The translations under genes and the position numbers were made by a program. DNA of 64,000 bases. It comes from Mesobacillus subterraneus. GTDB lineage: Bacteria; Bacillota; Bacilli; Bacillales; Cytobacillaceae. Below the pieces are notes generated by a model. That model ran no database searches. It had not been told where the DNA came from and saw only the letters and a program-made list of their open reading frames with translations. This document shows, piece after piece, positions 1,321 to 64,000 of the stretch (position 1 is the stretch's first letter; each line of letters opens with the position of its first letter). The stretch is taken from NCBI RefSeq assembly GCF_020524355.2, contig NZ_CP129019.1, forward strand, positions 434,001 to 498,000, given 5' to 3'.

Positions 1321-1467
1321 TTGGTCGAATTAATTGGGTATGTGGTCGAATTATTTGAAAAAGTGGTCGAATTAATTCAAAATGTGGTCGGAATATGTGT
1401 AAATGTGGTCGAATTAATTACAAATGTGGTCAAAATAACTTAAAATGTGGTCGGGAAAATTAAAAAT
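1321..1467. repeat. seven-unit tandem array, exact 21-bp period
   Basis: Seven consecutive units of exactly 21 bp each begin with GTGGTC (the first with TTGGTC), mostly followed by GAATTAATT and an A-rich end. No base is gained or lost between units although the sequence of each unit drifts. The array fills much of the 450-bp gap between the receptor and the chromate transporter genes. The rest of that gap (1468-1673) contains the word TTCGCCAATAAGT, which recurs at the 57-kb array, and otherwise nothing I recognise. Confidence 0.9.
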
Positions 1468-1673
1468 TCGCCAATAAGTCAAGGGACGAGGAGAATTTTC
1501 ACTGATCTGAACCTTTTAAAGGGGAAGATGTAAATTAGTGTGGCAATCGACCTGCAAATTAATATGAATTTGACATGCAGTATCGAATATAGGAGTCTAT
1601 AATAAAATTAAAGCAATAAGATTTATAGAAAGAGACCGCTTTAGGCACCAATAACCAAAGAGAAGGTGAAGTT

Positions 1674-2249
1674 TTGAAACAACGAGATTTATTCTTAGCG
1701 TTTTTTCGCGTGGGAATCCTTGGCTATGGAGGCGGCCCGTCTTCGATTCCGCTTGTACATAAGGAAGTGGTAGAAAAATATAAATGGATGGACTCTGATG
1801 AGTTCGGTGATGTCCTTGCTTTGGGAAATGCACTGCCAGGCCCGATTGCTACGAAAATGGCTGGCTATATAGGCTATCGAGTAGGGGGATATCTTGGCAT
1901 GATCAATGCTCTGGCAGCAACGATGATCCCGGCGATTATCCTGATGATCCTCCTCTTGACCGGCCTGAACTCATACAAAGATGAGCCATGGGTGAAAGGT
2001 ATGGCGGAGGCTGTTGTTCCAGTTGTTGCAGTCATGCTTGCTGTCCTTACATGGGATTTTATCAAGAAGTCAGGTAAATCAAAGCTTGGATGGGTCTGGA
2101 CAGCTGTGGCGCTAATAGGCAGTCTGGTTCTTCTTCAATTCTTCAATCTGCATCCCGCTATTTTGATTTTTGTCTTGCTGCTCGGTGCCTTGCTGAAAAA
2201 AGACCCTGCTCCAGTTGAAAACAAACAAACAGGAGGGGAGCAGCAATGA
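1674..2249 (+). CDS. chromate transporter family (CHR), first half-size subunit
   Basis: A 191-residue membrane protein of the CHR family. The N-terminal family signature is plain (FFRVGILGYGGGPSSIPLV, then ALGNALPGPIATKMAGYIG), followed by four or five hydrophobic segments. Full-size CHR proteins are about 400 residues with two homologous halves; this is a half-size form, partnered by the next gene, as with the ywrA/ywrB pair of B. subtilis. Family members move chromate, probably outward; the true substrate of this pair is not shown. The TTG start at 1674 is chosen because AGAAGGTGAAG lies at the right distance upstream. The gene overlaps the next by four bases (ATGA), so the two are translationally coupled. 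Confidence 0.9.
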   Translation: MKQRDLFLAFFRVGILGYGGGPSSIPLVHKEVVEKYKWMDSDEFGDVLALGNALPGPIATKMAGYIGYRVGGYLGMINALAATMIPAIILMILLLTGLNSYKDEPWVKGMAEAVVPVVAVMLAVLTWDFIKKSGKSKLGWVWTAVALIGSLVLLQFFNLHPAILIFVLLLGALLKKDPAPVENKQTGGEQQ

Positions 2250-2776
2250 TTTACTTTCATATATTTTTGGACTTTTTCATTCCCGGGATTTTAGGATATG
2301 GAGGTGGACCTGCCTCCATACCGTTAATTGAAAATGAAGTTGTTGACCGCTATGAATGGATGTCTGTCAACGAATTCAGTGAAGTGCTGGCAATGGGCAA
2401 CGCCCTGCCAGGCCCGATTGCAACTAAGATGGCTGGGTATATTGGATATGCAGAAGGCGGAATCCTCGGTGCTATCGTTGGGGTATTTGCCACGGTCGCA
2501 CCATCCTTAATCCTAATGATCAGCCTGCTCGGACTTTTAATGAAGTTCAAAGATTCCCCGCGTGTCAAAAGGCTGACAATCGTCGTCCGCCCTGTCATTG
2601 CCGTCCTTTTAGGAGTCATGACCTATGATTTCTTTTTCTCTTCCTATGAGGGGGTCGGTCTAATGCAGACCATTCTGATTGGCGGAATCAGCTTCATCCT
2701 GATGGAAAAATTGAAAGTCCACCCTGCATATGTCATCGCAGGTTCCCTTGTTTACGGCGCCCTTGTTTTATCGTGA
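2246..2776 (+). CDS. chromate transporter family (CHR), second half-size subunit
   Basis: A 176-residue partner of the preceding gene with the same signature near its start (FFIPGILGYGGGPASIPL, then AMGNALPGPIATKMAGYIG) and about five membrane segments. The two proteins are clearly homologous and most likely form an antiparallel heterodimer, as proposed for short-chain CHR pairs. AGGAGGGG lies just upstream, inside the end of the first gene. The stop codon sits within the stem-loop of an intrinsic terminator, so the pair forms a compact two-gene unit. Chromate is the family substrate; no regulator is adjacent. Confidence 0.9.
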   Translation: MIYFHIFLDFFIPGILGYGGGPASIPLIENEVVDRYEWMSVNEFSEVLAMGNALPGPIATKMAGYIGYAEGGILGAIVGVFATVAPSLILMISLLGLLMKFKDSPRVKRLTIVVRPVIAVLLGVMTYDFFFSSYEGVGLMQTILIGGISFILMEKLKVHPAYVIAGSLVYGALVLS

Positions 2777-2795
2777 ACAAGGGTTTTTCTTTTTT
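2760..2795 (+). terminator. terminator overlapping the end of the chromate transporter pair
   Basis: CCCTTGTT pairs with AACAAGGG around an 8-nt loop that contains the stop codon, followed by a T-rich tract. Confidence 0.85.
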
Positions 2796-2861
2796 TAAAA
2801 ACATTTCCTTACTCCGACAATCATGTAAGCGGTGTCATTAAAAAACGCTGAAAAAACTATA

Positions 2862-2890
2862 TTGACAAATATATCAGATAGTTTTAATAT
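2862..2890 (+). promoter_or_regulatory. sigma-A promoter for the SAM riboswitch/metNPQ transcript
   Basis: TTGACA at 2862-2867, a 17-bp spacer and TAATAT at 2885-2890, ending about 30 bases before the aptamer. Confidence 0.85.
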
Positions 2891-2920
2891 TTCAATTATC
2901 GAAATTAATTGAATAAGTTA

Positions 2921-3022
2921 CTTATCAAGAGAGACTGAGGGATTAGGCCCTGTGACGTCCGGCAACCTCCTTTTTAGGAAAGGTGCCACTTCCTGCAGAA
3001 TGAGTTCATTCTGAAAGATAAG
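2921..3022 (+). ncRNA. SAM-I (S-box) riboswitch aptamer
   Basis: The classic S-box landmarks occur in order: CTTATCAAGAGAG opening, GAGGGA, GGCCCTGTGA, CCGGCAACC, the GGTGCCA segment, TCCTGCAG, and a closing AAGATAAG that pairs with CTTATC to form P1. In this class SAM binding stabilises P1 and lets the downstream terminator form. The genes below it encode a methionine ABC importer, which agrees with the RNA class. Confidence 0.97.
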
Positions 3023-3038
3023 TCGTATAGATGTTTAC

Positions 3039-3076
3039 GATGCCTCTTTCTTTGAATGAAAGAGGCATTTTTATTT
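3039..3076 (+). terminator. S-box expression-platform terminator
   Basis: GATGCCTCTTTC pairs with GAAAGAGGCAT around a short loop and is followed by a T-rich tract; it lies 17 bases after P1, as expected for transcription attenuation. Confidence 0.9.
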
Positions 3077-3091
3077 TTAGCTCTGTTTGTT

Positions 3092-3220
3092 GATTTCCGT
3101 TCCAGGCGCTTCGCTTCCCGAGGGCAGTGGGGGAGCCTCCTCGGCGCTATATGCGTCTGCGGGGTCTCCCTATGACTTGCTCATGCCGCAGGAGTCTATG
3201 CGCCTTCCACTACAATCAAC
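3092..3220. repeat. dispersed Bacillus-type palindromic repeat in the metN leader
   Basis: The stretch from GATTTCCGTTCCAGGCGC to CGCCTTCCACTACAATC matches, from memory, an intergenic element common in Bacillaceae. Its ends are inverted (GGCGC and GCGCC) and the middle has further imperfect pairing (GGGGAG against CTCCC), so it can fold as one long hairpin. It is GC-rich compared with its surroundings and separates the riboswitch terminator from metN. Only this copy occurs in the window, so repeat status rests on recall. Downstream, a short GGCTT/GAGCC hairpin and T-rich stretch (3241-3262) precede metN. Confidence 0.6.
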
Positions 3221-3282
3221 ACGGTGTAATAACAAGATTGGGCTTTAACAGAGCCTTATTTTTAAAAAACGGGGGTGCAAAC

Positions 3283-4296
3283 ATGATTGAAGTGAAAAGC
3301 CTGGTCAAGATATACGAAACGAAAAAAGGGTCAGTTACAGGTGTTGACCATGTTTCATTAAAAGTAGCAAAGGGCGAGATATATGGAATTGTCGGTTATA
3401 GCGGTGCCGGGAAAAGTTCTTTGATACGATGCCTGAACCTCCTTGAAAAGCCGACATCAGGAGAGATACATATTGACGGAGTAGAGCTTACTTCTTTGAA
3501 TAAAAATGACCTTAGAAAGGCGCGCTTGAAAATTGGGATGATCTTTCAGCATTTCCATCTTGTCAGCGCAAAGACAGTTAGTGAAAATATTGCATTTGCG
3601 TTGAAAGCAGCCGGCCTTCCGAAAGCAAAAATACAGGATAGAGTGACAGAGCTCCTTGATATGGTTGGTCTTTCGGATAAAAAGGATGTCTATCCGGCAC
3701 AATTGTCAGGCGGACAGAAACAGCGTGTCGGCATCGCCAGGGCGCTGGCGAACAATCCATCAGTGCTTTTGTGTGATGAAGCTACTTCCGCTCTTGATCC
3801 GAGCACGACGAAATCGATTCTATCTCTACTTAAAAAGATTAATAGTGAATTGGGGATCACCATTGTCCTCATCACCCATGAGATGGAAGTCGTCAAGACG
3901 ATCTGTGACAGGATGGCGGTCATGCAGGATGGGAAAATCATTGAAGAAGGCAATGTTTATGATGTTTTCGCGAATCCCCAGCAGACGCTCACAAAGGACT
4001 TCGTCAACTCCATCCTTCAATTCGAATTGCCGGAAAGGTTGCTGGAGGAGCGTCAAGGAAAGCTGATCAAGATTTATTTCCAGGGTGAGATTGCTGAAGA
4101 GGGTGTCATTTCAGATGTTTTCCAAACCTTTAAGGTGCGCGGCAATATCCTCCATGGGAAAATCGAATATATTCAGGACATTCCACTGGGGATTTTCATC
4201 ATGGAGGTCACGGGAGAACAAATGGAGATTGAGCGGGCGATTGCCTACATAGCGGCAAGGACGACAAATCTGGAGGTGATTGGTGATGCTGCTTGA
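3283..4296 (+). CDS. metN: methionine ABC transporter ATP-binding protein
   Basis: A 337-residue ABC ATPase that energises methionine uptake with MetP and MetQ. Walker A is GYSGAGKSS, the ABC signature LSGGQKQRV, Walker B LLCDEATSAL, and the switch His lies in ITHEME. The last 90 or so residues form the C-terminal NIL/ACT-like regulatory domain of MetN, which binds methionine and gives transinhibition in characterised relatives. ATG 3283 is preferred to upstream in-frame codons because GGGGGTG precedes it at normal spacing and the family begins here (MIEVKSLVKIY). The gene overlaps metP by 11 bases and is controlled by the SAM riboswitch about 260 bases upstream. Confidence 0.96.
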   Translation: MIEVKSLVKIYETKKGSVTGVDHVSLKVAKGEIYGIVGYSGAGKSSLIRCLNLLEKPTSGEIHIDGVELTSLNKNDLRKARLKIGMIFQHFHLVSAKTVSENIAFALKAAGLPKAKIQDRVTELLDMVGLSDKKDVYPAQLSGGQKQRVGIARALANNPSVLLCDEATSALDPSTTKSILSLLKKINSELGITIVLITHEMEVVKTICDRMAVMQDGKIIEEGNVYDVFANPQQTLTKDFVNSILQFELPERLLEERQGKLIKIYFQGEIAEEGVISDVFQTFKVRGNILHGKIEYIQDIPLGIFIMEVTGEQMEIERAIAYIAARTTNLEVIGDAA

Positions 4297-4951
4297 TAAC
4301 CTTATTGAACTATTGCCTGAATTGAACAAAGCATTTTTTGAAACAATCTATATGGTTGGCATCTCCATCCTTGTCGCAATAATTGTCGGCTTGCCTACTG
4401 GGGTTCTGCTTTTTGTCACTGATAAAGGACTTTTTCTGGAAAATCAAGTTTTTAAAAATATTGCCAGCTTCATCGTCAATATGATTCGCTCGGTTCCATT
4501 CATCATCTTGTTGATCGCTCTCTTGCCACTCGCGAATTTGATTGCGGGTTCGACAATCGGGCCGACAGCCGCATCTGTATCTTTATCGGTCGCGGCAATC
4601 CCGTTCTTTGCGAGAATCGTAGAACAAAGCTTTCGGGAAATCGATAAGGGTGTCATCGAAGCTGCTGTTGCGACAGGCGCAACGCCGTGGATGATTATTA
4701 AAGATGTCCTTATACCAGAGGCTAAGCCTGGCATCGTTCAGGGTGTGACCATCACGATCATCAGCCTTGTTGCCTATTCGGCAATGGCCGGCATTGTCGG
4801 CGGTGGCGGAGTCGGTGACCTCGCGATCCGCTTCGGTTATTACAGATACGACAATACAATCATGATCACGACAGTCATCATCCTGATTTGCCTCGTCCAG
4901 CTGATCCAGTTTGGCGGAGACAGAATTGCAAGAGTAGTAGACAAAAGGTAA
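4286..4951 (+). CDS. metP: methionine ABC transporter permease
   Basis: A 221-residue inner-membrane permease (MetI/MetP type) with about five hydrophobic helices. The cytoplasmic EAA-type loop that docks onto MetN is visible (EAAVATGATPWMIIKDVLIPEAKPG, in the second half). It forms the methionine channel as a dimer with two MetN. ATG 4286 is chosen over the nearby TTG 4280 and GTG 4283 because GGAGGTG ends seven bases before it. It overlaps metN and is followed after 21 bases by metQ, giving one operon under S-box control. Confidence 0.95.
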   Translation: MLLDNLIELLPELNKAFFETIYMVGISILVAIIVGLPTGVLLFVTDKGLFLENQVFKNIASFIVNMIRSVPFIILLIALLPLANLIAGSTIGPTAASVSLSVAAIPFFARIVEQSFREIDKGVIEAAVATGATPWMIIKDVLIPEAKPGIVQGVTITIISLVAYSAMAGIVGGGGVGDLAIRFGYYRYDNTIMITTVIILICLVQLIQFGGDRIARVVDKR

Positions 4952-4972
4952 ATAATAGGAGGTTCTTTTAAA

Positions 4973-5788
4973 ATGAGAAAATTATTCTTTTCAGTAGTGT
5001 TATTTTTATCAATCGGACTGCTCGCTGCATGCGGCAGCGACTCATCATCCAGCGGAGATGCAAAAAAAGTGACATTCGGAGCGACATCCGGTCCATACAG
5101 CGATATGGTCTCAAAAGCCATCAAGCCACTTCTTGAGAAAAAAGGCTATGAAGTGAAAGTAGTCGAGTTCAGCGATTACATCCAGCCGAACCTGGCATTG
5201 TCAAAGGATGATCTTGACGCTAACCTGTTCCAGCACAAGGTTTATATGGAAAACTTCGCGAAAGAACATAAGCTTGAACTATCGGAAGTCATCGTCGTGC
5301 CAACAGCGCCAATGGGGATTTACTCTAAGAAGTTCAATTCACTGGATGAAGTTGCAGAGGGTTCTGCCATCGCGATTCCAAATGACCCGACAAATGCAGC
5401 ACGCGCCTTCTTGATTCTTGAAGACGCTGGCTTGATTAAGCTTGACCCTAATGCTGACCCACTTACCGTTTCTGAAAAAGATGTAAAAGACAATGTCAAG
5501 AAACTGCAGTTCAAGCCAATTGAAGCAGCACAGCTTCCAAGAGCAGTAGATAGCGTCGACCTTTCAGCTGTACCTGGCAACTTTGCGCTTGCAGCAAAAA
5601 TGGACCTGCTTGAGGCACTGCAGCTGGAAAATATGCCAGACCAATACCGCAACCGTGTCGTCATCAATACAAAAGACGAGGATGCCCTATTTGCAAAGGA
5701 CATCAAAGAAGTCGTAGAATCTGCAGAATTTGAAGAAATCATCGATGAAGAATTCAAAGGCTTCGGAAAGCCAGAATGGATGAAGTAA
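4973..5788 (+). CDS. metQ: methionine-binding lipoprotein
   Basis: A 271-residue NlpA/MetQ-family substrate-binding lipoprotein. It has a typical signal peptide ending in the lipobox LLAAC, so Cys20 would be lipidated and anchor the protein on the outer face of the membrane. Family segments include VTFGATSGPYSDM near the start and ANLFQHKVYMENF, IPNDPTNAARA and the C-terminal KPEWMK. It captures methionine and passes it to MetP. AGGAGG precedes the ATG. Last gene of metNPQ, closed by a strong terminator. Confidence 0.96.
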   Translation: MRKLFFSVVLFLSIGLLAACGSDSSSSGDAKKVTFGATSGPYSDMVSKAIKPLLEKKGYEVKVVEFSDYIQPNLALSKDDLDANLFQHKVYMENFAKEHKLELSEVIVVPTAPMGIYSKKFNSLDEVAEGSAIAIPNDPTNAARAFLILEDAGLIKLDPNADPLTVSEKDVKDNVKKLQFKPIEAAQLPRAVDSVDLSAVPGNFALAAKMDLLEALQLENMPDQYRNRVVINTKDEDALFAKDIKEVVESAEFEEIIDEEFKGFGKPEWMK

Positions 5789-5804
5789 AAGACCCATAAT
5801 AATG

Positions 5805-5840
5805 AAGTCCCGGCGCCAAGCTCCCGGGACTTTTCCTTTT
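5805..5840 (+). terminator. terminator after metNPQ
   Basis: AAGTCCCGG pairs with CCGGGACTT (perfect 9 bp), followed by a T-rich tract. Confidence 0.92.
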
Positions 5841-6138
5841 TTATAGCTTTCTCACCTATATATTGGGTAAAATATTGAAGAGACTCTTTTTGGTAGGCTC
5901 TATAGTTCTTTTATAGTAGAATCTGCACTAACTAGTCAAATGATGCTGCAGAGCAAAAAAGGTCCGACAGAATAAATCTATTAGCCAAAATGAGAAGCCA
6001 AAATGAGGCTGCGAAACAACAACGGTCACATAGGTAAACTCTATACAAGCGGGACGAGCAGTTGAAAGGACATTGCGAGCCTTTCACAGGTAATGGAATG
6101 TCATTTGAAATCAATCTAACAGTAACAGAGGGAGATTT
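5841..6138. other. gene-free stretch before the DUF445 gene
   Basis: About 300 bases with no credible reading frame. It holds a short duplicated phrase (AGCCAAAATGAG twice near 5980-6005) and a small GAAAGG/CCTTTC inverted repeat near 6064. No RNA family or promoter that I can name. Confidence 0.4.
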
Positions 6139-7398: not shown

Positions 7399-7410
7399 AA
7401 ATTAATGAAA

Positions 7411-7439
7411 GGCCAATCCACTGCGGGATTGGTCTTTTT
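7411..7439 (+). terminator. terminator after the DUF445 gene
   Basis: GGCCAATCC pairs with GGATTGGTC (one G-T pair), followed by five T. Confidence 0.88.
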
Positions 7440-7492
7440 ACTGTATCAGCCGATATGAAATAAATGGTAGTATGATTATGGGAGGGGGATTC

Positions 7493-7870: not shown

Positions 7871-7883
7871 GGGAGTGGCAAAG

Positions 7884-8243: not shown

Positions 8244-8317
8244 ATAGCTTAATAGGCTCGGTTTATGACCAAGCCTTTTTTCATAGATAAGAAAGGATAA
8301 ATTTCACTTCGAGAAAT

Positions 8318-8892
8318 GTCCAGCTCCAGCGCCTAGCCCCTCGAGTCGTTTCGGTCCTGCCAATGAAGTCAAAGAGCGACTTCACTGTCAGGCCCTCCAA
8401 CGCTTGTCGGAGTTGGTCAGTCGCCTCCGCATTTCGAATTGTCTAGCTTTGGCTCCTAACTCCTCGAGACGTTTCGGTCCTGCCAATGAAGTCAAAGAGC
8501 GACTTCACTGTCAGGCCTTCCAACGCTTGTCGGAGTTGGGCAGTCGCCTCCGCATTTCGAATTGTCTAGCTTTGGCTCCTAACTCCTCGAGACGTTTCGG
8601 TCCTGCCAATGAAGTCAAAGAGCGACTTCACTGTCAGGCCCTCCAACGCTTGTCGGAGTTGGGCAGTCGCCTCCGCATTTCGAATTGTCTAGTGTCGCCT
8701 CCTAGAAACTCCGAAACTTCAACTCCGCCGGCAGAAGCAAAAAGCGCTTCTTTGTCGGAGTCTCCAGTTTCTCCGTTTCTGGACAGTCGGCTATACAATT
8801 CGATTTCGGTCCGCTCAGGTGAAGTCAAAGAACGACTTCACCGGTCGACCCTCCAGCGCTTGTCGGGGCTGAACGAGGCGTTTGCGCTTTTC
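8318..8892. repeat. amplified dispersed palindromic repeat (three 123-bp units plus a variant unit)
   Basis: The element opens with CCAGCTCCAGCGCCTAGCCC and closes with GGGGCTGAACGAGGCG plus GCGCTTTTC; these ends are imperfect inverted repeats. Inside, TCCTGCCAATGAAGTC faces GACTTCACTGTCAGG to make a strong hairpin. This inner block occurs at 8348, 8471 and 8594, an exact 123-bp period with almost no divergence. A fourth, diverged block follows after about 209 bases that carry a different segment starting CCTAGAAACTCCGAAAC. Related copies lie at 23.0 and 62.7 kb. The open reading frame across it is an artefact of the repeat. It fills the 730-bp gap between the cupin and PAS-STAS genes. Confidence 0.92.
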
Positions 8893-8973
8893 TTAATAGG
8901 AAAGGAATTTATCAAGTTGTTAAGTTATGGATAACTAATTATGCAGTTTTCTTAATCCAATGATTTTTGTTCA

Positions 8974-9816: not shown

Positions 9817-9824
9817 GGGAGTAC

Positions 9825-10574: not shown

Positions 10575-10745
10575 ACGAAGGAGATCACGGCAAAAAAGAA
10601 GCCAGTCAAAATACATGTCAGAGGAATTTACGGCAAAAAGAAGCCAGTCAAAATACATGCAGAGGAATTTACGGCAGAAAGAAGCCATTCAAAATATCAG
10701 GCAAGAGAGTTACCCGCAAAAAACAGCTAGTCAAAACAATAGTCA
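10575..10745. repeat. degenerate tandem array, about 41-bp period
   Basis: Three to four units share TTACGGCAAAAAGAAGCC followed by AGTCAAAATACATG and AGAGGA. The two best units begin about 41 bases apart (near 10620 and 10661); the last degrades. It lies in the 440-bp gap between the two doxX genes, whose remainder (10366-10574) shows the doxX1 promoter region and nothing else named. Confidence 0.8.
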
Positions 10746-14390: not shown

Positions 14391-14833
14391 ACGCCAACTG
14401 AGAGTATTGGTGTCCTAAATCCTGAGATACGAGAAAAGAGGTAGCCGATGGAGCTTATTGGTGTCCTAAGGAAAAGAGGTAACCAATAGACCGTTTGGTG
14501 CCCTGAAATGTAAGAATATAGGAAAAGAAGGTAACCAATAGGCCGGATTGGTGCACTAATTTGTAAAAATACGGGAAAATAGGATACCAATAGACCGTAT
14601 TGGTGCACTAATTTGTAAAAATACGGGAAAATAGGATACCAATAGACCGTATTGGCGCCCTAAATTTGTAAAAATAAGGTAAAATAGGTAAACAATGAAC
14701 CGCATTGGCGCCCTAAGATGTAAGAATATAGGAAAAGAATGTAACCAATAAGGCGCATTGTTGCTTGAAAATGTAAGAATACAGGAAAAAGAAATGACCA
14801 ATAGTCCGCATTGGCGTCCGAAAATGTAAGAAA
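14391..14833. repeat. tandem array of about nine units, 52-bp period, each with a short palindrome
   Basis: The core of each unit is ACCAATA-N5-TATTGGT, a hairpin, followed by GCACTAATTTGTAAAAATA and a GGGAAAATAGG-like stretch. The two best units start at 14581 and 14633, exactly 52 bases apart; the outer units are degenerate. The array occupies most of the 740-bp gap between the terminator at 14331 and the response regulator. The flank 14834-15032 shows no other feature I recognise. Confidence 0.88.
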
Positions 14834-21094: not shown

Positions 21095-21107
21095 TTAATT
21101 AGAACTG

Positions 21108-21187
21108 AAAAAGGCAAACTTATCGAAAGGTAAGGACGCAAAGCCGCGAGTCTAAGGCATTTCAGCTATGATCGTCGGGCTGCCAAA
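21108..21187 (+). ncRNA. c-di-GMP-I (GEMM-I) riboswitch
   Basis: The sequence follows the GEMM-I pattern: AAAAAGGCAAACTTATC, the tetraloop GAAA with its pairing arms (CTTATC/GGTAAG), GGACGCAAAGCC, the second stem ending AGCTATG, then CGTCGGGCTGCC closing P1 with GGCA. This aptamer class binds cyclic di-GMP. A possible expression-platform hairpin follows at 21209-21260 (AGAT-GGTG against CGCCATCT, then T5), with a long loop, so an on/off sense cannot be stated. Confidence 0.93.
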
Positions 21188-30149: not shown

Positions 30150-30221
30150 TATAGCAGGGTCCTAATTTGGGCTTTTTTTTTTTGAAACCTGAAATCCATT
30201 ATTACATATAAGGAAATAAGG

Positions 30222-30335
30222 TTATTATGACAGGTTTCAAGCCGTAGAGCGCAAAGCTGTTAAAAAACGGGGGCATTATGTCAGGGTTCAAGGTATAGGA
30301 CCCAAAGTTGTCAAGTAAGCGAGGTTATTAGGACT
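30222..30335. repeat. short degenerate tandem array, 51-52-bp period
   Basis: The phrase ATTATG(A/T)CAGG(T/G)TTCAAG recurs at 30224 and 30275, with a third decayed copy (ATTAGGACTG) at 30327, giving steps of 51 and 52 bases. The units also share CAAAG(C/T)TGT-AA. Too few units for a firm claim on its own, but the period equals that of the arrays at 14.4, 36.6 and 44.9 kb. Confidence 0.6.
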
Positions 30336-36632: not shown

Positions 36633-36840
36633 TTAATGGACATTTCACGAAAGTTGCGGGAGCGGAAGGTCTAAAAACAGGAGTGTAATGGACATTTCAA
36701 GCAAGCTACAGAAGTGAAATGTCTAATAACAGTGGCTTAATGGACATTTCTAGAAAGATACAAAGACGAAATGTTTAAGAACAGGGGGTAAAGGACATTT
36801 AAGCAAGAATGCCATAGTGAAATATCTAATAAAAGTTTCT
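36633..36840. repeat. four-unit tandem array, 52-bp period, with an inverted repeat in each unit
   Basis: TAATGGACATTTC recurs at about 36634, 36686, 36738 and (as TAAAGGACATTT) 36789. In each unit GACATTTC faces GAAATGTC about 18 bases downstream; in the first unit the right arm has decayed. It fills most of the 460-bp gap between the zinc-finger gene and the HxlR gene. Confidence 0.87.
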
Positions 36841-42723: not shown

Positions 42724-42764
42724 ATAAGTAATGAATATAAAGTTAGGTTTATCATTTGATGCAT

Positions 42765-42827
42765 GGTCGATATATTTAGAGAGAGGGTCTAAATATCTTT
42801 AAATGTGGTCGATATATTTATTTTTTC
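42765..42827. repeat. three-unit tandem array, exact 21-bp period
   Basis: GGTCGATATATTTA, GGTCTAAATATCTT and GGTCGATATATTTA begin at 42765, 42786 and 42807. The unit and the connecting AAATGT are of the same kind as the array at 1321-1467, so these two sites belong to one repeat family. The rest of the 530-bp gap (42828-43162) shows no other feature. Confidence 0.82.
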
Positions 42828-44883: not shown

Positions 44884-45785
44884 AGGGTACCGTTCAATCG
44901 AAATCGTATCCTTATGAAGTCCAATTCAGTAACATAAGGGTATGGTTCAATCGAAATCGTATCCTTATGAAGTCCAATCCAGCAACATAAGGGTATGGTT
45001 CAATCGAAATCGTATCCTTATGAAGTCCAATCCAGCAACATAAGGGTATGGTTCAGTCGAAATCGTATCCTTATGAAGCTCAATTCAGTAACATAAGGGT
45101 ATGGTTCAATCGAAATCGTATCCTTATGAAGTCCAATCCAGCAACATAAGGGTATGGTTCAACCCAAATCGTATCCTTATGAAGCCCAATTCAGCAATAT
45201 AAGGGTACCGTTCAACCCAAATCGTATCCTTATGAAGTCCAATCCAGCAACATAAGGGTATGGTTCAATCGAAATCGTATCCTTATGAAGTCCAATCCAG
45301 CAACATAAGGGTATGGTTCAATCGAAATCGTATCCTTATGAAGTCCAATCCAGCAACATAAGGGTATGGTTCAACCCCAATCGTATCCTTATGAAGCCCA
45401 ATCCAGCAACATAAGGGTATGGTTCAACCCAAATCGTATCCTTATGAAGTCCAATCCAGCAACATAAGGGTACCGTTCAGTCGAAATCGTATCCTTATGA
45501 AGTCCAATTCAGTAACATAAGGGTATGGTTCAATCGAAATCGTATCCTTATGAAGTCCAATCCAGCAACATAAGGGTATGGTTCAACCCCAATCGTATCC
45601 TTATGAAGCTCAATTCAGTAACATAAGGGTATGGTTCAATCGAAATCGTATCCTTATGAAGTCCAATCCAGCAACATAAGGGTATGGTTCAATCCAAATC
45701 GTATCCTTATGAAGCCCAATTCAACAACATAAGGGTACCGTTCAACCCAAATCAGATTCTTTTGAAGTCCAATCCAACTCCATAA
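44884..45785. repeat. 17-unit tandem array, 53-bp period, with an inverted repeat in each unit
   Basis: Sixteen near-identical units plus one decayed unit. AGGGTA recurs at 44884, 44937 and 44990, an exact 53-bp step, and CGTATCCTTATGAAG follows through the array. In every unit CATAAGGGTA faces TATCCTTATG across 17 bases (one G-T pair), so each can form a hairpin; the loop has a further TTC-AATC-GAA. Units differ by a few bases (TATGG or TACCG; TCGAA or CCCAA; CAATCCAGCAA or CAATTCAGTAA). The array fills the whole convergent gap between the NERD gene and the carboxypeptidase gene. Confidence 0.96.
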
Positions 45786-48067: not shown

Positions 48068-48130
48068 AAAGCTTTTTTGTTTTTCATTTAACATAATGTT
48101 CTGTATAATGTCACTAACTTAATATATTCC

Positions 48131-48263
48131 TTCGGGGTCGGGTGAAATTCCCAACCGGCGGTGATGAAGCGATGCTTCTTAGTCCGTGACCCGGTTAACA
48201 TTTGTTAAACGGTGGATCTGGTGAAACTCCCAGGGCCGACAGTTAAAGTCTGGATGGGAGAAG
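48131..48263 (+). ncRNA. FMN riboswitch (RFN element)
   Basis: The conserved RFN blocks follow in order: TTCGGGGTCGGGTGAAATTC, CCAACCGGCGGTGATG, AGTCCGTGACCCG, GGTGGATCTGGTGAAACTCC, AGGGCCGACAGTTAAAGTC and TGGATGGGAGAAGG. FMN binding favours the downstream terminator and shuts off riboflavin synthesis. The ribDEAH operon follows. Confidence 0.98.
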
Positions 48264-48337
48264 GAAAAAACGAGGATTAAAAGATCGGGATCAGTATGCC
48301 CTTTTTTAACCCTCTAGTTTGACATTGCCTTTTTTAG

Positions 48338-56836: not shown

Positions 56837-56846
56837 ATATTGAATG

Positions 56847-56885
56847 AAAAACCACTTAATCGAGAGCTGATTAAGTGGTTTTTTT
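56847..56885 (+). terminator. terminator after the subtilase gene
   Basis: AAAAACCACTTAATC pairs perfectly with GATTAAGTGGTTTTT (15 bp) and is followed by T. Confidence 0.94.
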
Positions 56886-56934
56886 GTTCTCTGCTTGAAA
56901 AAAACGCCCGGAATTTCCAGTTCGTCAATATAAT

Positions 56935-57165
56935 TTGATTTTCGCCAATAAGTAAGTGGATTTAGCCAATAAAAATTGAAAATCACTAATAAAAATTGAA
57001 AATCACAAATAAAAATTGAAAATCACAAATAAAGTTGTGAAAATCGCCAATAAGTTGTGAAAATCGCCGATAAGTTGTGAAAATCGCCGATAAGTTGTGA
57101 AAATCGCCAATAAAGTTGTGAAAACCGCCAATAAAGTTGTGAAAACCGACAATAAAATAGTTCAA
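56935..57165 (+). repeat. 20-21-bp tandem array, plus-strand orientation
   Basis: About ten to eleven units. The right part repeats GTTGTGAAAATCGCCAATAA; towards the left it drifts into AAAATCAC(A/T)AATAAAAATTG. Steps are 20 or 21 bases. The shared core reads AAAATCGCCAATAA on the plus strand, the coding direction of the subtilase gene just upstream. It starts directly after that gene's terminator. Confidence 0.92.
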
Positions 57166-57236
57166 GCATCTAAAAGGATAGTAACTTGGTGTGAAAACTA
57201 GTCTTGAACATGCCTGTTCACACAATAGAAATGATA

Positions 57237-57350
57237 TTATAGCGAAAATCTTCATTTTATAGCGACTTTCTGATTTTTATAGCGAAAATCCATTTTTTAT
57301 AGCGATTTTTCCATTTTTATAGCGAAAAATTCGTTTTTATAGCGAACTGG
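57237..57350 (-). repeat. 20-bp tandem array, minus-strand orientation
   Basis: TTATAGCG occurs at 57237, 57257, 57277, 57297, 57317 and 57337, an exact 20-bp step. Read on the minus strand the unit ends in AAAATCGCTATAA, very close to the AAAATCGCCAATAA core of the neighbouring array. This array thus points against the other and follows the transcription of the CAP gene on the minus strand. Confidence 0.92.
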
Positions 57351-57393
57351 AAATTATCCGCGATTTTTTCCAATTCAAGAAATGAGATCCGGC

Positions 57394-58525: not shown

Positions 58526-58750
58526 AGATTATTCACCATCCTTTCTTCCATATCACCAATATACCCATTAATACTTGTTTAAAAAAGCATACTAGCTTGT
58601 TAACGGGGCAAACTTTGTATGTAAAAACAATACAGGTGAATTTATTGTGAATCATTTCACAAAATGTTCGTGATTCTGCTGTTAAATTCGTATGAATCAG
58701 TAGTATTATTACTATCTCTATAGTGATTATATTGCCAGGAGGTCTGATTA

Positions 58751-59746
58751 GTGAAAAAAATTCTGCAACTCATCATTGTGTTCGGACTTATTCTGACACC
58801 TTTTTATACAAATGCTCATGTAAAATGGTTTACTGAAGTGGCGCCTAAGAAAGAAAGTATCGAGAATATTTTGTCTCCGTTATTCATGGGGCTTGCCTTG
58901 CTGGCTGCATTAGTCCTCGCCTCACTGACACTAATAATCCCAAAGATGGCACAATGACCACTCATTCAAAAATGGGATGATTTCCTTTCGGGATTCCGGA
59001 AATATTCTAGATATTTATTGAAATACGGAACAGCAGTCGCTCTAATCATCCAGGTAACAAACGGTACCTTATTCGCACCGGAATTCCAGGTCGACAGCAC
59101 CTTGATGATGATCTTGGCTTGGGCAACGATAGGCCTTCTCCTCGTACCGCACCATATCGCGACAAAAATGGGAGCGGCGATATTACTGATATTATTCATC
59201 ATGGTCACTGTAAACCATGGCATTTTCTATATGCTTGATTACGGTTTTTATGTGGCGATCATCGGAGTGCTGCTTATCGGCAGCACTAAGCTTGAAAATG
59301 TCGGCTTCCCGTTCTTATATTTGGGGACAGGACTCTCATTATGCTGGGTCGCCGTTGAAAAATGGGTATACCCCACCATGTCGCTGGATATCGTCGCAAA
59401 CCACCAGGTGCCTACCTTCGGATTTGACTCAGCATCCTTCATCGTCATGGCCGCTTTCATCGAATTTGTTGTTGGCTATTTGCTGGTAGTCGGTATCTTG
59501 AATCGAGTACTGGGAGTTGTTGTCACAACCATCTTTATTTTAACGACAATGCTTTTCGGATTTACAGAGATCATCGACCACTTCATGATCCATATTGTCC
59601 TGATCATCTTCATCATCGAAGGAGTATCCTTCTATAATCCGCCAATTAAAATGCACAAAACAAGAGTAGACCAATTCATCTTTATATTTTTGAATTTCAT
59701 CTTTGTCTTATCGACCTTTGTGTTAATTTATTATCGTTTTGCTTAA
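58751..59746 (+). pseudogene. DoxX-like polytopic membrane protein split by an in-frame stop
   Basis: Two open stretches in the same frame, 58751-58957 (68 residues: signal peptide, AHVKWFTEVAPKKESIEN, one membrane helix) and 59018-59746 (242 residues, seven or so helices), are joined without a gap by PLIQKWDDFLSGFRKYSRYLL. Only the TGA at 58955-58957 interrupts them; TGG (Trp) would give one 331-residue protein. The family, recalled from other Bacilli, is a DoxX-related membrane protein with an extracellular AHVKWF start. The GTG start has AGGAGGT. The second part has no ribosome binding site of its own, so a nonsense mutation is likely. Confidence 0.75.
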
Positions 59747-59747
59747 G

Positions 59748-59777
59748 CAGCCTTTTATGGAGGCTGTTTTTCTTTTT
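59748..59777 (+). terminator. terminator after the DoxX-like gene
   Basis: CAGCCT pairs with AGGCTG around a 7-nt loop, followed by TTTTTCTTTTT. Confidence 0.8.
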
Positions 59778-59860
59778 GGAATACTCAGACCTTTTGTTGA
59801 CGCTTGCTTCTGTTCTTTGTTACGATTTCTCTAGTTGCAAATGGAATGGGAGAGATGATG

Positions 59861-61147
59861 ATGAAGCCTTATTCTTTTGAACCTGATGCGGAACTTGCCG
59901 CACAGCTTGACGGTGAAGATCTGTTAGCCCGTTACCGGGATGAGTTTTACCTGATACCTGATTCAATCTATCTTGATGGAAACTCGCTTGGTCTCCTTTC
60001 AAAGCGTGCTGAAAAAACATTGCTAGAGTCATTGACCGACTGGCGCGAGCTTGGCATTGATGGCTGGATGGATGGCAACCATCCGTGGTTCTATTTATCT
60101 GAAAAACTGGGAGAATTGACTGCTCCGCTAATCGGTGCTGCTTCTGAAGAGGTAATTGTAAGCGGCTCCACAACGGTCAACCTGCATCAGTTGGTGGCGA
60201 CTTTTTACAAGCCTGAGGGTAAAAAAACCAAAATCCTTGCTGATGAATTGAATTTTCCGTCGGATATCTATGCGCTTCAAAGCCAGCTGCGAATCCATGG
60301 CTATGATCCAGATACGCACCTGATCAGTGTGAAAAGCAGGGACGGAAGGTTCTTGGATGAGGACGATATCATTGAGGCAATGACCGAAGAAATTGCGCTT
60401 GTCGTGCTGCCGACTGTGCTGTACCGCAGCGGACAAATTCTTGATATGGAGCGCCTGACAAGAGCTGCACACAGCCGCGGAATCCTGATTGGTTTCGATG
60501 GCTGCCATTCGATCGGCGCGATTCCTCATTCCTTTTCTGATTGGGGAGTCGACTTTGCCTACTGGTGCAATTATAAGCACCTGAATGGCGGGCCGGGGGC
60601 GGTAGCAGGTCTTTATGTGAACTCGAAGCATTTAGGCACGAAGCCTGGTCTTGCCGGCTGGTTCGGTTCAAGAAAAGATAAACAGTTTGATATGAAGCAT
60701 GTCATGACACCTGCAGAGACTGCCGGCGCTTACCAAATTGGTACACCACATGTTCTGAGCCTTGCGCCTTTACTCGGCTCATTGGAAATGTTCGCAGAGG
60801 CTGGAATTCAGAATATCCGTGAAAAATCATTAAAGATCAACCGTTATCTCATGGATCTGATACAGCAGGAGCTTGGTGATGCAGGCTTCATTATCGGCAG
60901 CCCAACAGAAGATTTCAAACGAGGCGACCATGTCAGTCTGGAGCACAAGGAAGCTGCAAGGATTTGCAAGGCGTTGAAGGAAAAAGGAATCATCCCTGAT
61001 TTCCGCGCTCCGAACATTGTCCGCCTTGCCCCTGTGGCCCTTTACACTTCTTACAATGACGTCTGGAATGCTGTCCAGATCTTAAAAGATATCATGGATA
61101 ATAAATTATACGAGAAATATAGCAATGAGCGCGGAGTTGTGGCGTAG
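59861..61147 (+). CDS. kynU: kynureninase
   Basis: A 428-residue PLP enzyme that cuts kynurenine to anthranilate and alanine. Family blocks: [59 protein letters not shown] (Lys binds PLP), and [21 protein letters not shown] at the end. First gene of a kynU-kynA-kynB operon for tryptophan breakdown to anthranilate. Three ATG codons stand in a row (59855, 59858, 59861); the last has GGGAG at the best spacing. Confidence 0.95.
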
Positions 61148-61162
61148 GGGAGGAGTCCGGAA

Positions 61163-61993
61163 ATGAAGGAAGAGCAAAAAACACATCAAATTCACACTGA
61201 TTTTTCAAAAGAGCTTTCTTATGGCAGTTACCTGCAGCTGGATAAAATTTTATCGAGCCAGCAGCGCCTGTCTGATCATCATGATGAAATGCTGTTCATC
61301 ATTATCCACCAGGCTAGCGAGCTGTGGATGAAGCTGATTTTACATGAAGTGAGCGCGGCGATTGACTGCATACGAAAAAATGATTTGGAGCCGAGCTTCA
61401 AGATGCTCTCAAGGGTGTCAAGGATCCAGCAGCAGCTGATCCAATCATGGAGTGTACTTTCGACGCTGACTCCGGCTGAATATATGCAGTTCCGTGACAA
61501 GCTTGGCCATTCGTCAGGATTCCAATCCTATCAGAACCGTTTGATTGAATTTGCTCTTGGCTAAAAGAGCGAACATGTATTGTCTGTGTACAAACATGAT
61601 GCCCAACTGTATAAACAAATGGAGGATGCGCTGCATGGACGATCGATTTATGATGCGGCGATCAGTGCGATGGCGATGCGCGGACTGCCGATAGATGTTG
61701 AAGCCTTAAATCGTGATTGGTCTGCTCCGTACGAACCACATGCCAGTGTCGAGGAAGCATGGCTCACGGTGTACCGAAACGTCGATCAATATTGGGATTT
61801 ATATGAGCTTGCGGAGAAGCTTGTCGATATCGGCAGCCAGCAGCAGCTTTGGCGTTTCAACCATATGAGCACGGTTGAACGGATCATCGGCCACAAAACT
61901 GGAACAGGCGGATCTGCCGGTGTATCCTATTTGAAAAAGGTCGTCGACCACCGATTTTTCCCAGAGCTATGGAGCCTGAGGACGAAGCTATAA
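61163..61993 (+). pseudogene. kynA: tryptophan 2,3-dioxygenase, interrupted by an in-frame stop
   Basis: The frame encodes a typical Bacillus TDO of about 276 residues, which opens the indole ring of tryptophan to N-formylkynurenine. The N-half has [20 protein letters not shown] (haem-side His) and [15 protein letters not shown]; the C-half continues in the same frame with KSEHVLSVYKHDAQLYKQM and RFNHMSTVERIIGHKTGTGGSAGVSYL. A TAA at 61562-61564 separates them. One base change (for example TAT or AAA) would restore the gene. GGGGAGGAG precedes ATG 61163. If real, the first step of the pathway is lost while kynU and kynB remain intact. Confidence 0.85.
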
Positions 61994-62012
61994 TAAGAAA
62001 GTAGGTAACAGT

Positions 62013-62639
62013 ATGGGAAACTGGATTGATATTTCGCAGGTTTTACATGATAAAATTCCTGTTTGGCCGGGCGATACGCCATTTCATTATGAAGTGAGCT
62101 GGGGGATGGAAGAAAGCGGCTCTGTGAATGTCGGACAGGTAACGATGAGCACGCATACCGGCACACATATCGATGCGCCTTTTCATTTCGATAGTGATGG
62201 AAAAAAAGTAATCGATCTGGACTTTAACCTGTATATCGGTCCTGCAAAGGTGATTCATTTACAGAAGCCGGAAAGTATCGGAATTAAGGAAGTGGAAGCT
62301 GAGGATTTGCGCGGAGTCAAGCGCCTGTTGATCCGTACGGACGCATGGCAGGATAAGACGGTGTTCCCAGAATCAATTCCGCATATCGAGCCTGAATTGG
62401 CTGCTTATCTTGCTGAGCAAGGAGTACATTTGCTTGGGCTAGATTTACCATCGGTTGATCCATTGGACAGCAAGGAACTAAGTGCCCATCATGAGTTGAA
62501 CAACCGGGACATTCATATCCTTGAAGGACTGGTACTTGAAAATATCGAACCAGGAGATTACGAGCTCGCTGCATTGCCTCTGCCGCTGGAACAGGCGGAT
62601 GGAAGTCCTGTTCGTGCCGTGATCCGAAAAAAGAATTAA
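62013..62639 (+). CDS. kynB: kynurenine formamidase (arylformamidase)
   Basis: A 208-residue metal-dependent cyclase-family hydrolase that turns N-formylkynurenine into kynurenine. The zinc signature HTGTHIDAPFHF is intact (about residues 50-61); DLPSVDPLDSKELSAHHELN carries the second set of ligands. It starts 19 bases after kynA and completes the tryptophan-to-anthranilate operon. A strong terminator follows. Confidence 0.94.
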   Translation: MGNWIDISQVLHDKIPVWPGDTPFHYEVSWGMEESGSVNVGQVTMSTHTGTHIDAPFHFDSDGKKVIDLDFNLYIGPAKVIHLQKPESIGIKEVEAEDLRGVKRLLIRTDAWQDKTVFPESIPHIEPELAAYLAEQGVHLLGLDLPSVDPLDSKELSAHHELNNRDIHILEGLVLENIEPGDYELAALPLPLEQADGSPVRAVIRKKN

Positions 62640-62643
62640 GATG

Positions 62644-62676
62644 AAGGCTGCCTTCAATTGGGCAGCCTTTTTTGTT
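62644..62676 (+). terminator. terminator after the kyn operon
   Basis: AAGGCTGCC pairs with GGCAGCCTT, followed by T. Confidence 0.93.
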
Positions 62677-62735
62677 TGTTAACCAGGAATTATAAAATTA
62701 ATTAAGTGTGTATAACTACATGTAGTTTTCTTAAT

Positions 62736-62852
62736 CCAGCTCCAGCGCCTAGCCCCTCGAGACGCTACTGTCCTGACAATGAAGTCAAAGAACGACTTCA
62801 CTGGCAGGCCCTCCAGCGCTTGTTGGGGCTGAACGAGGCGCTTGCGCTTTTT
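62736..62852. repeat. dispersed palindromic repeat, single complete unit
   Basis: Third copy of the element at 8.3 and 23.0 kb and the simplest: CCAGCTCCAGCGCCTAGCCC, one GAAGTC-N7-GACTTC hairpin flanked by CCTGACA and TGGCAGG, CAGCGCTTGTTGGGGCTG and AGGCGCTTGCGCTTTTT. At about 117 bp it shows the basic unit, with inverted ends (AGCGCCTAGCCCC against GGGGCTGAACGAGGCGCT). Confidence 0.9.
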
Positions 62853-62896
62853 GTTCTTTGAGGAAAATCATGTCGAAAAGAGAACTAAGATTGTTG

Positions 62897-62947
62897 TTGA
62901 CCAAAGTGGTCAATAGGGAATATAATGATATTGACCAGGTTGGTCAA
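62897..62947 (+). promoter_or_regulatory. tetR promoter between twin operators
   Basis: Two identical-arm palindromes, TTGACC-N5-GGTCAA, lie at 62897-62913 and 62931-62947. The first includes the -35 (TTGACC, 62897), TATAAT follows at 62921-62926 after 18 bp, and the second covers the transcript start. Strong sign of autorepression by the TetR protein encoded next. Confidence 0.88.
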
Positions 62948-62970
62948 TGCGGTTTTTTAAGGAGGTCATG

Positions 62971-63600
62971 ATGTCTTCAAAATTTTTAAGTTTGAATCCT
63001 GAAAAGCAAGAACGAATCCTGAACGCAGCTCTAAAGGAGTTTGCCCTGAAAGGATACGAAAATGCATCCACAAATGAAATCGTCAAATCAGCAGGAATCT
63101 CAAAAGGGCTGCTATTCCACTATTTCTCGAATAAAAAAGAACTCTATTTGTTTCTCTATAACCACTTTGTTGATGTGTTATTGGAAGAACTATTTAATGA
63201 ATTAGACTTCAGCGAACGTGATATTTTTGAGCGGCTGAAGAACATGATGATCCTCAAAAATAAGCTGATGGCAAGACATCCCGAAGTATTCAACTTTATG
63301 ATGTCAGCTTCAATGGAAACTTCAGAAGAAGTGAAAGAGGCATTGAACAGCACCAGCACAGAACTGATGAACAACAGCTTTGGCAGATTATTCGAAAATA
63401 TCGACCTTGCAAAGTTCCGTGAAGGTACGGATATTCCAAGAACAATCAACATCATCATGTGGACTCTCGAAGGCTTCAGCAACCAGGAACTCGAAAAAGC
63501 GAAAAAACTGAACAAAGAGTTTCTTAATTTTAATGAAGCTTTTAAAGAAGTCGAAGTGTATATCGATATGATGAAGAAGTCATTTTATAAAAGTGAGTAA
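62971..63600 (+). CDS. TetR family transcriptional repressor
   Basis: A 209-residue regulator. The N-terminal helix-turn-helix (about 8-55) reads RILNAALKEFALKGYENAST, EIVKSAGISKGLLFHYFSNKKELY; the rest is a helical ligand-binding and dimer domain. The start is one of two tandem ATG codons (62968 or 62971) after AAGGAGG. Twin operators overlap its own promoter. The genes it controls, probably an exporter, would lie beyond the repeat array at the window end or elsewhere. Confidence 0.92.
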   Translation: MSSKFLSLNPEKQERILNAALKEFALKGYENASTNEIVKSAGISKGLLFHYFSNKKELYLFLYNHFVDVLLEELFNELDFSERDIFERLKNMMILKNKLMARHPEVFNFMMSASMETSEEVKEALNSTSTELMNNSFGRLFENIDLAKFREGTDIPRTINIIMWTLEGFSNQELEKAKKLNKEFLNFNEAFKEVEVYIDMMKKSFYKSE

Positions 63601-63639
63601 TCCGAATTTCTAACAGGCAGCAACATAGACGGAAATGGT

Positions 63640-64000
63640 CACAACCGTCGATCAAAAGAGTCCAACCGTAGATAAAATTTCATTAACCGTTTATAAAAAG
63701 AGTCCAACCGTAGATAAAAGTGCTCCACCAGTTAGAAAGTTGGAAATTGAACCATATCTGTTTTGAAAAATGGCTCAACCGGTTGGTATTAAAACAGCTT
63801 CAACTGGTATTAAAAGAGAACCAACCGGCATTAAAACAGCTTCAACTGGTATTAAAAGAAAACCAACTGGTATTAAATCAGCTTCAACTGGTATTAAAAG
63901 AGAACCAACCGGCATTAAAACAGCTTCAACTGGTATTAAAAGAAAACCAACTGGTATTAAAACAGCTTCAACTGGTATTAAAAGAGAACCAACTGATATT
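63640..64000. repeat. 21/42-bp tandem array running off the window end
   Basis: From about 63780 to the edge, CTTCAACTGGTATTAAAAG and AACCAACCGGCATTAAAAC (or its AACTGGT form) alternate, giving a 42-bp period (starts at 63798 and 63840) made of two 21-bp monomers CAAC(C/T)GG(C/T)ATTAAAA. The earlier part (63640-63780) has a looser relative, CCAACCGTAGATAAAA, repeated about every 21 bases. It begins directly after the tetR stop. Confidence 0.92.

Follow-up and report, generated by a model that had tools for sequence, protein, structure and literature searches.

Intergenic tandem arrays of two period classes are linked to genes of the NERD-domain protein family in Mesobacillus subterraneus and related genera

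Why should a bacterial chromosome keep the unit length of its intergenic tandem repeats while the sequence of those repeats differs from place to place? The question is raised by a 64-kb stretch (hereafter the window, meaning the whole of the DNA analysed in detail) of the single-contig 4.79-Mb genome of Mesobacillus subterraneus, in which an earlier sequence-only reading had noticed at least nine intergenic tandem arrays with units of about 21 or about 52 bp. Satellites between bacterial genes tend to be regarded as noise from slippage or as markers for typing. Here we report that arrays of both size classes are linked to genes of proteins carrying the nuclease-related domain (NERD; PF08378). 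We consider it very likely that they are the recognition arrays of this protein family, each paralogue having a private adjoining array and related arrays elsewhere, and the subfamily setting the unit.

Tandem arrays were called with Tandem Repeats Finder (TRF), and a simple codon score supplied the gene calls and the noncoding status of arrays in the samples. Translation of the genes beside arrays of the 52-bp class (units of 51-53 bp) revealed four related proteins adjoining four different array families. The member encoded in the window, NERD-A, scores 56.7 bits against PF08378 (curated cut-off 22.1), and ten NERD matches are found in the genome. All six intact NERD-A genes (~309-328 aa) are followed by a 52/53-bp array, at 7, 19, 49, 55, 68 and 210 bp, and the units of these six arrays are unlike one another (pairwise scores 6-13, with a shuffle maximum of 17). 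A second type, NERD-B (322-343 aa), has three genes, and each lies close to a 20/21-bp array, the distances being 39 (a family-c array; see below), 71 and 81 bp; the tenth match, a 546-aa protein, has none. Among 728 genes taken as a baseline, a 52-class array lies within 450 bp of 37 (5.1%) and an array of the 21-bp class within the same distance of 42 (5.8%). Gene and array are linked, and paralogues stand beside unlike sequences. One further NERD-A gene, at G000:C1:4219059-4219957, is broken into several frames and is a possible source of orphan array families.

The association extends beyond this genome. NERD matches occur in 22 of 24 named genomes, with up to 14 in Sutcliffiella horikoshii; no match was obtained in the other two, Bacillus swezeyi and Paenibacillus arenosi. 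We surveyed 120 NERD loci in 23 genomes, namely the ten of the window's genome and 110 of the 148 matches in named genomes (38 were left unread), 30 of the 110 being returned as loci and 80 fetched by frame length before their arrays were viewed; arrays of other genera that had been met before the NERD link was recognised were excluded from the counts. Each locus was labelled by the class of any TRF array within 450 bp, which gave 48 loci of class 21, 39 of class 52, two with both (L332 and L403, read as 21), three with other periods and 28 with none, a label that may cover decayed arrays or true absence. One class-21 label (L326, two 22-bp copies beside another NERD type) is likely false. Class-52 arrays lie downstream of the NERD gene at 35 of 39 loci (median 49 bp), class-21 arrays upstream at 37 of 48 (median 82.5 bp), and the two classes were seen in 16 and 19 genomes, respectively. 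The consensus units suggest that array sequence also differs between one NERD gene and the next across genera.

A maximum-likelihood tree of 114 NERD proteins (stop-to-stop frames; six were excluded by length) needs a single change of period class. Clade A holds 39 loci of class 52, six without array and none of class 21; the other clade holds 48 of class 21, 17 without array, three with other periods and none of class 52; and one protein on a very long branch beside clade A (L343) has no array. The period thus follows the subfamily. In four of the six clade A loci without array the contig stops no more than 191 bp away, which would be the expected outcome of assemblies breaking at arrays, and arrays may be under-counted for the same reason. 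Contig ends were met in 10 of the 80 fetched stretches (L356, L375, L376, L378, L381, L396, L401, L405, L423, L429). RibBA of the window's genome is 93% identical to that of the named M. subterraneus. The nearest named relatives of the window's NERD-A are from Mesobacillus, and its named relatives, among the 120 of 800 listed, are from Bacillales or close to them. At some NERD-B genes the 21-bp units are organised into higher-order repeats of 216 bp or 102-144 bp (L330 and L351 in Metabacillus, L332 in Neobacillus mesonae).

Does an array family also come and go with its gene? For the family beside the window's NERD-A gene, F1 (CCCTTATG-N16-CATAAGGG), we counted sites in a panel of 21 congeneric genomes, which are mutually related. 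An intact F1-type gene (79-100% identical) is present in 14 of the 21, and these have 23-167 F1 sites; the six genomes without the gene (G002, G003, G010, G012, G019 and G020, whose best paralogue is at most 46% identical or absent, G010 being 66% complete) have 0, 4, 0, 0, 0 and 0. In G018, whose gene is split, there are 60 sites. F1 sites and cognate gene therefore co-occur, with 23-167 sites in the 15 genomes that have the gene, G018 included, and 0-4 in the six that do not (Fisher, 1.8e-5). At the window's own site, eleven species carry both the NERD gene and an F1 array, whereas in G002, G003, G010, G019 and G020 a Hydrolase_2 gene abuts an S13 peptidase gene, and both the NERD gene and the F1 array are missing; this pattern of presence and absence indicates that gene and array were gained or lost together. 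In G015 the Hydrolase_2 gene follows the NERD gene at this site. The copy number at the site labelled 53 ranges between species from 2.5 to 20 units, the variable copy number by which slippage satellites and variable-number tandem repeats are recognised.

F1 is dispersed. The array at 44.9 kb has 15 further matches elsewhere in the genome. The exact dyad pattern occurs at 26 sites in the named M. subterraneus genome; of 23 other named genomes, two have a single site and 21 have none. In a set of 194 distinct F1 dyads, collected at 28 loci with a pattern that allowed one mismatch per half-site, CCCTTATG and CATAAGGG hardly vary; of the ten column pairs that flank them, two show pairing in excess of shuffles and eight do not. 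Because of this combination, F1 dyads resemble alternating inverted half-sites of DNA more than stems of RNA. Of the 21 dispersed 52-class arrays in the genome sample described below, 16 score higher against one of the six NERD-adjacent families than any of 60 shuffles does. The period is 53 bp in the four dispersed F1 arrays, as in the array adjoining the F1 gene, and 52 bp in the others, except for one borderline array of 53. The window array at 14470..14832 matches the array beside another NERD-A gene (L316) at a borderline score of 16, the shuffle maximum being 17. The statement of the sequence-only reading that array sequences are mostly private to their locus therefore needs correcting, since genome matches reveal dispersed families, many of them beside a NERD gene. 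Its observation of an inverted repeat per unit in the clearer 52-53-bp arrays is borne out for many units, 17 of 25 consensus units having one better than 95% of shuffles. At a second site, between moeA and moaE, TRF called 52-bp arrays in nine of 20 loci examined (22 were returned), the longest having 18 units, and the remaining loci have one or two decayed units or none.

Arrays of the 21-bp class consist of an 11-15-bp core and a freer spacer, and their cores define families a (TGGTCGAATTA), b (TCGCCAATAAAA), c (TCGCTATAAAA), d (CAACNGGNATTAAA and variants) and e (AAGGAATATAT). For family c, core pairs at exactly 20 bp (at most two mismatches) number 131 genome-wide against 0 for a reversed control pattern, and among the 27 clusters in the matches listed, 125 of 141 gaps are 20 bp. 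Exactly six cores are present in 17 of these 27 (the others having 4, 5, 5, 5, 5, 7, 8, 8, 9 and 10), and a head box, TGGAAAAAA-N9-AATTTCCA, directly precedes the first core in 26, both edges being sharp. The exact pair pattern was found in all five Mesobacillus genomes sampled and in none of the 194 other genomes sampled from the order, 95 genera being represented altogether. Between same-direction genes, family c lies in the sense orientation in 12 of 16 cases in this genome and eight of eight in relatives (20/24 pooled, p 0.0015), a weak and partly non-independent bias that no other family displays. The family-a array at 1.3 kb of the window and those at two further loci (L025, L188) finish on a family-b-like core (TTCGCCAATAA; 1468-1479 in the window) that resembles a tail box.

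Conservation at one orthologous site allows core and spacer to be compared. On the 3' side of a subtilase gene, at least four b cores are followed by at least four c cores of opposite orientation in 16 of the 21 congeneric genomes, one further locus being interrupted by a contig end. The six b cores keep the spacing 20, 21, 20, 20, 21 in seven of the 21 species. In six of these (the seventh, nearly identical to one of them, was left out) pairwise differences amount to 7.1% in cores, 25.6% in spacers and 24.0% in the 40 bp upstream, and random column labels do as well in two of 20,000 permutations. Cores at this site are more constrained than spacers. A NERD-B gene of the named M. subterraneus genome, at a different locus (L393), stands beside an array that repeats both the spacing and the head box of the b array at the subtilase site.

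The two size classes are not peculiar to the window. In a genome sample made up of the window and 40 evenly spread 20-kb stretches (864 kb, 18% of the genome), TRF found 66 noncoding arrays, of which 25 have periods of 20-21 bp, five of 41-42, 25 of 52-53 and 11 other values, so that 55 of the 66 fall into the classes and the flat period histogram named beforehand as refuting them was not observed. When the 177,163 bp of intergenic DNA in the sample were resampled ten times under a first-order Markov model, TRF reported 23 rows with a score of at least 50 and no array with at least three copies at a period of at least 15. Among the 11 other arrays, three with 34-bp and two with 123-bp units are, by eye, one other dispersed repeat, and one of period 134 resembles a tRNA array. 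That repeat, TGTCTAGCTCCAGCGCCTAGCCCCTCGAG, occurs in its 34-bp and 123-bp forms at 8332-8692 of the window, at L012, L013, L019 and L022, and at L126 of G019; in this last genome it occupies, by eye, the site that holds a 53-bp array in other species. In G020 about three to four 20-bp units (ATTCCGGAAA) stand at the site of the 53-bp array (L121), one class replacing the other; a family-a array near site 53 in G002 was considered as a second such replacement and rejected, lying ~1 kb away.

Arrays of both classes lie mostly near gene 3' ends, and the non-random placement suspected at the outset was recovered in the sample. With both flanking genes called (n=51), one two-class array is between divergent and 18 are between convergent genes, as against 87 and 53 of 397 baseline intergenic regions of at least 100 bp (Fisher, p 2.4e-4 for the divergent depletion and 3.0e-4 for the convergent excess). 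Fifteen arrays lie inside genes, none with a period of 52-53 bp. A coding role for the arrays was rejected, periods of 52-53 not being multiples of three and the codon score being that of noncoding DNA, and no pattern of replication-strand polarity was seen by eye among the matches listed.

The features of the window are collected in Table 1. The tandem tracts first seen by eye are real: TRF reports those at 1.3, 10.6, 14.4, 36.6, 44.9, 57 and 63.6-64.0 kb, the tract at 42.8 kb amounts to three cores and that at 30.2 kb was recognised by eye, and the period is kept over decayed sequence as claimed. No array matched Rfam at gathering scores, the only matches in the window being three riboswitches (FMN at 48124-48269, SAM at 2919-3024 and c-di-GMP-I at 21103-21187).

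Table 1. The NERD-A gene and the repeat features of the window
Feature	Position	Strand	Remarks
NERD-A gene, 309 aa	43936..44865	+	PF08378 nuclease-related domain; four conserved cysteines, zinc-ribbon-like; C-terminal winged-helix-like part (by eye)
53-bp array, family F1 (CCCTTATG-N16-CATAAGGG)	44884..45776		TRF; 16.8 units; starts 19 bp past NERD-A stop codon
52-53-bp array, family F5 (ACCAAT...ATTGGT)	14470..14832		TRF; 5-7 units
Decayed 51-52-bp units, F2-like (TGACAG...CTGTCA)	30216..30330		About two units, by eye; no TRF call
52-bp array (TGGACATTTC...GAAATGTC)	36634..36829		TRF; 3.4 units; NERD partner not identified
21-bp array, family a (TGGTCGAATTA)	1322..1467	+	6-7 units (TRF x6.3); last core family-b-like
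Three family-a cores, 21-bp spacing	42764..42816	+	Between divergent genes
41-bp array	10587..10696		TRF; 2.6 units; outside assigned families
Head box preceding array b (TTGAAAAAAACGCCCGGAATTTCCAGT)	56895..56921	+	
20-21-bp array, family b (TCGCCAATAAAA core)	56922..57156	+	TRF 20 x9.4
20-bp array, family c (TCGCTATAAAA)	57235..57345	-	TRF 20 x5.5; six cores, strict 20-bp spacing
Head box of array c (AATTGGAAAAAA-N-AATTTCCAGT)	57346..57375	-	Abuts first core
21-bp array, family d (CAACCGTAGATAAAA)	63642..63719	+	TRF
21/42-bp array, family d (CAACTGGTATTAAAA)	63784..64000	+	TRF; continues beyond window

Both protein types keep nuclease-type residues. In 54 aligned NERD-A proteins G41, E42, D74, K88 and Q115 are invariant, E86 is present in at least 90%, and cysteines C216, C219, C233 and C236 are kept; the matching residues of NERD-B, E59, D92, K107 and Q139, are present in 45 of 45 proteins. 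This set agrees with a PD-(D/E)XK-type nuclease core and a zinc ribbon, and inspection of the sequence makes a C-terminal winged helix in NERD-A likely. No solved structure proved related to the window's NERD-A by sequence (best E 0.18). A plasmid or phage origin of this protein was rejected, a search of 72,556 plasmid and 50,697 phage records having yielded no relative.

DNA curvature, predicted with the Bolshoy wedge model, accounts for some families. The ratio of end to contour length averages 0.62 in 26 family-c arrays against 0.90 (SD 0.06) in 439 AT-rich intergenic windows, and 20 of 21 arrays are within the lowest 5% of column permutations that keep the period (15 of 21 with an AA-only wedge model). 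In family-c spacers A-runs and T-runs are interchangeable and TpA steps are avoided (14 seen, 59.5 expected; 8 and 36 in relatives), which fits selection for A-tract shape rather than for letters. Arrays of families c and b and some of d are predicted to be curved, and the 5% level is passed by nine of 30 arrays of the 21 class and two of 25 of the 52 class. As a general function curvature was rejected, failing for family a and the 52 class, and with so few arrays of either class passing, bending is not the common denominator.

Taken together, these sequence comparisons suggest that each NERD protein recognises its own array family and probably spreads or maintains that same family. The unit that accompanies NERD-A consists of alternating inverted half-sites every 51-53 bp, and that of NERD-B of cores repeated in one direction every 20-21 bp. 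The core may be bound by the zinc ribbon together with the C-terminal part, while protomers packed along the DNA might fix the spacing at about two or five turns. The nuclease fold could then start copying or local amplification of the arrays, as RAYT transposases do for REPINs, and bent or protein-coated DNA at gene ends would be a possible by-effect. The spacing constraint or single amplification mechanism first suggested for the arrays thus pointed in the right direction, the period class following the NERD subfamily; strict helical phasing did not emerge. Phasing may or may not be the sole cause: the periods of 20.0, 20.4, 21, 51, 52 and 53 fit no single helical repeat, and two and about five helical turns remain plausible as the reason for the two period values.

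Several observations weigh against recognition of the arrays by NERD proteins. No TRF array was found at the 28 loci labelled as having none. The co-occurrence concerns one family in related, non-independent genomes, and in G018 the F1-type gene is split into two frames while 60 F1 sites are retained, so arrays can outlive their gene. Two of the 21 dispersed 52-class arrays are borderline and three unmatched to NERD-adjacent families, and no NERD partner was seen in this genome for families a and e or for the arrays at 10.6 kb (41 bp) and 36.6 kb. At the subtilase site the fifth b spacer (9.6%) is as conserved as some b cores (10.6%). Family-c spacers are no more alike at the same index than at others between loci (0.482 and 0.480; 17 arrays), from which it follows that these arrays are not recent copies.

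What the proteins do with the arrays is a matter of competing explanations. They may form an architectural or regulatory system of the host that binds arrays born by slippage and thereby preserves them, without copying them, and serves in nucleoid shaping, as a roadblock at gene ends or in control of the protein's own gene; this we regard as a realistic possibility, somewhat short of an even chance. It accords with constrained cores and freer spacers, with the b spacing preserved among species and beside a NERD-B gene, with the predicted curvature of c, b and some d arrays and with the position of arrays near gene ends; invariant nuclease-type residues would be odd in a pure binder, and several families per genome, with sequences that differ in other genera, are more readily understood as a selfish or domesticated mobile system. 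Under that explanation the arrays are mobile but non-autonomous, NERD supplies their enzyme and the host gains nothing, a scheme that is conceivable but that we would sooner doubt than assert. Dispersed families tied to one gene, presence and absence at orthologous sites and the sharp head box before nearly all listed family-c clusters speak for it, set against cores that stay constrained long after insertion, the lack of plasmid and phage relatives of the window's NERD-A, and the failure to meet target duplications or recent copies, for which no systematic search was made. We advance with similar reserve the fuller proposal that NERD proteins are satellite-writing enzymes, each paralogue reading its short core, writing or repairing an array whose unit length the protein itself would measure (about two turns for NERD-B, about five for NERD-A) and distributing the array to gene ends, where it would serve as a bent or coated DNA element, in about ten co-evolving pairs per genome.

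The remaining explanations fare worse. A defence role, in which arrays identify DNA as the cell's own and the NERD nuclease attacks whatever lacks the mark, would make sense of conserved nuclease-type residues and many diverging paralogues, but the window's NERD-A has no match in PADLOC and we regard the idea as improbable. Arrays of RNA hairpins or terminators are more improbable still. The inverted repeats of the 52-class units, the sense bias of family c and the two F1 pairs above shuffles are what such arrays would offer, yet compensatory change is absent from eight of ten F1 pairs, which led us to disfavour hairpins for this family; A- and T-runs exchange in family-c spacers, Rfam gave no match, and a terminator already stands between gene and array at 20 of 38 and 16 of 27 gene-end flanks (gene ends generally, 130/307). 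Neutral satellites, generated by slippage at gene ends where no selection opposes them, can hardly be the explanation at all: widely varying copy number in the 52 class and avoidance of divergent (promoter) regions are in keeping with them, whereas fixed periods and the NERD link are not, and the match of subfamily and period in the tree and the F1 co-occurrence contradict them.

How do these arrays compare with known systems? Plasmid iterons and parC-type centromere repeats likewise consist of several same-direction sites, spaced at ~20 bp, next to a gene that encodes a DNA-binding protein; the NERD arrays differ in being chromosomal and present in many copies and in having a NERD protein, which, for the window's NERD-A, is absent from the plasmid records. 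They do not qualify as CRISPR arrays, in which repeats of 24-48 bp alternate with unique spacers, having 11-15-bp cores with 8-9-bp spacers or 52-bp units alike throughout (cas genes were not searched). Family-c units resemble phased A-tract curved DNA (PMC3940949) in their two A/T runs ~10 bp apart and strong predicted curvature, and depart from it in the fixed head box, the mostly six cores and the link to a protein family; the 52 class, moreover, is not curved as a rule. SmdA of Staphylococcus aureus is a NERD-like protein with a studied role and partial NERD similarity; according to the paper on it, it is bound to the membrane, acts in cell shape and lacks several of the conserved NERD residues. 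The available portion of that paper mentions no arrays; before SmdA, to its authors' knowledge, the role of the NERD domain in bacteria was unstudied (PMC9040797). In a full-text literature search that returned titles and the starts of abstracts and covered few subscription journals, we met no link between NERD and repeats and no description of such a pattern in Bacillaceae.

The arrays thus offer a DNA partner for a little-studied domain: their period tracks the type of protein whose gene adjoins them, and the presence of one family tracks that of one gene. They would also provide a second system with the logic of RAYT and REPIN, in which the question of why bacteria keep populations of short repeats becomes testable by gene deletion in environmental species. 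Like the repetitive extragenic palindromic (REP) sequences of E. coli, which are cut by gyrase (as cited in PMC3733652), the 52-bp class has inverted repeats at gene 3' ends; it differs in its direct 52-bp periodicity and NERD partner. REP repeats carry a GTAG or CGTC tag beside a hairpin; by eye the consensus units have no common tag, no search for one being made. REP/REPIN elements are dispersed short palindromic repeats found mostly between same-direction and convergent genes (PMC3733652, PMC8049555), with more copies where the RAYT gene is present, the gene being vertically inherited and not seen on plasmids (PMC8049555). NERD genes share with RAYTs both the flanking by their own repeats and, for F1, the larger number of repeats where the cognate gene is present. 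They are chromosomal, the window's NERD-A likewise not being seen on plasmids, and their arrays too are dispersed mostly between same-direction and convergent genes. Their arrays are unlike REPINs in being phased at 20-21 or 51-53 bp, with little compensatory pairing, several paralogues per genome and occurrence in Bacillales, and the partner is a NERD protein (PF08378) rather than a tyrosine transposase, no transposase domain exceeding the Pfam cut-off (the genome was not searched for RAYT). Because the defining transposase is not the partner here, we do not count the NERD arrays as members of RAYT/REPIN; by analogy, they are best read as enzyme-satellite pairs that would follow the same logic with another enzyme.

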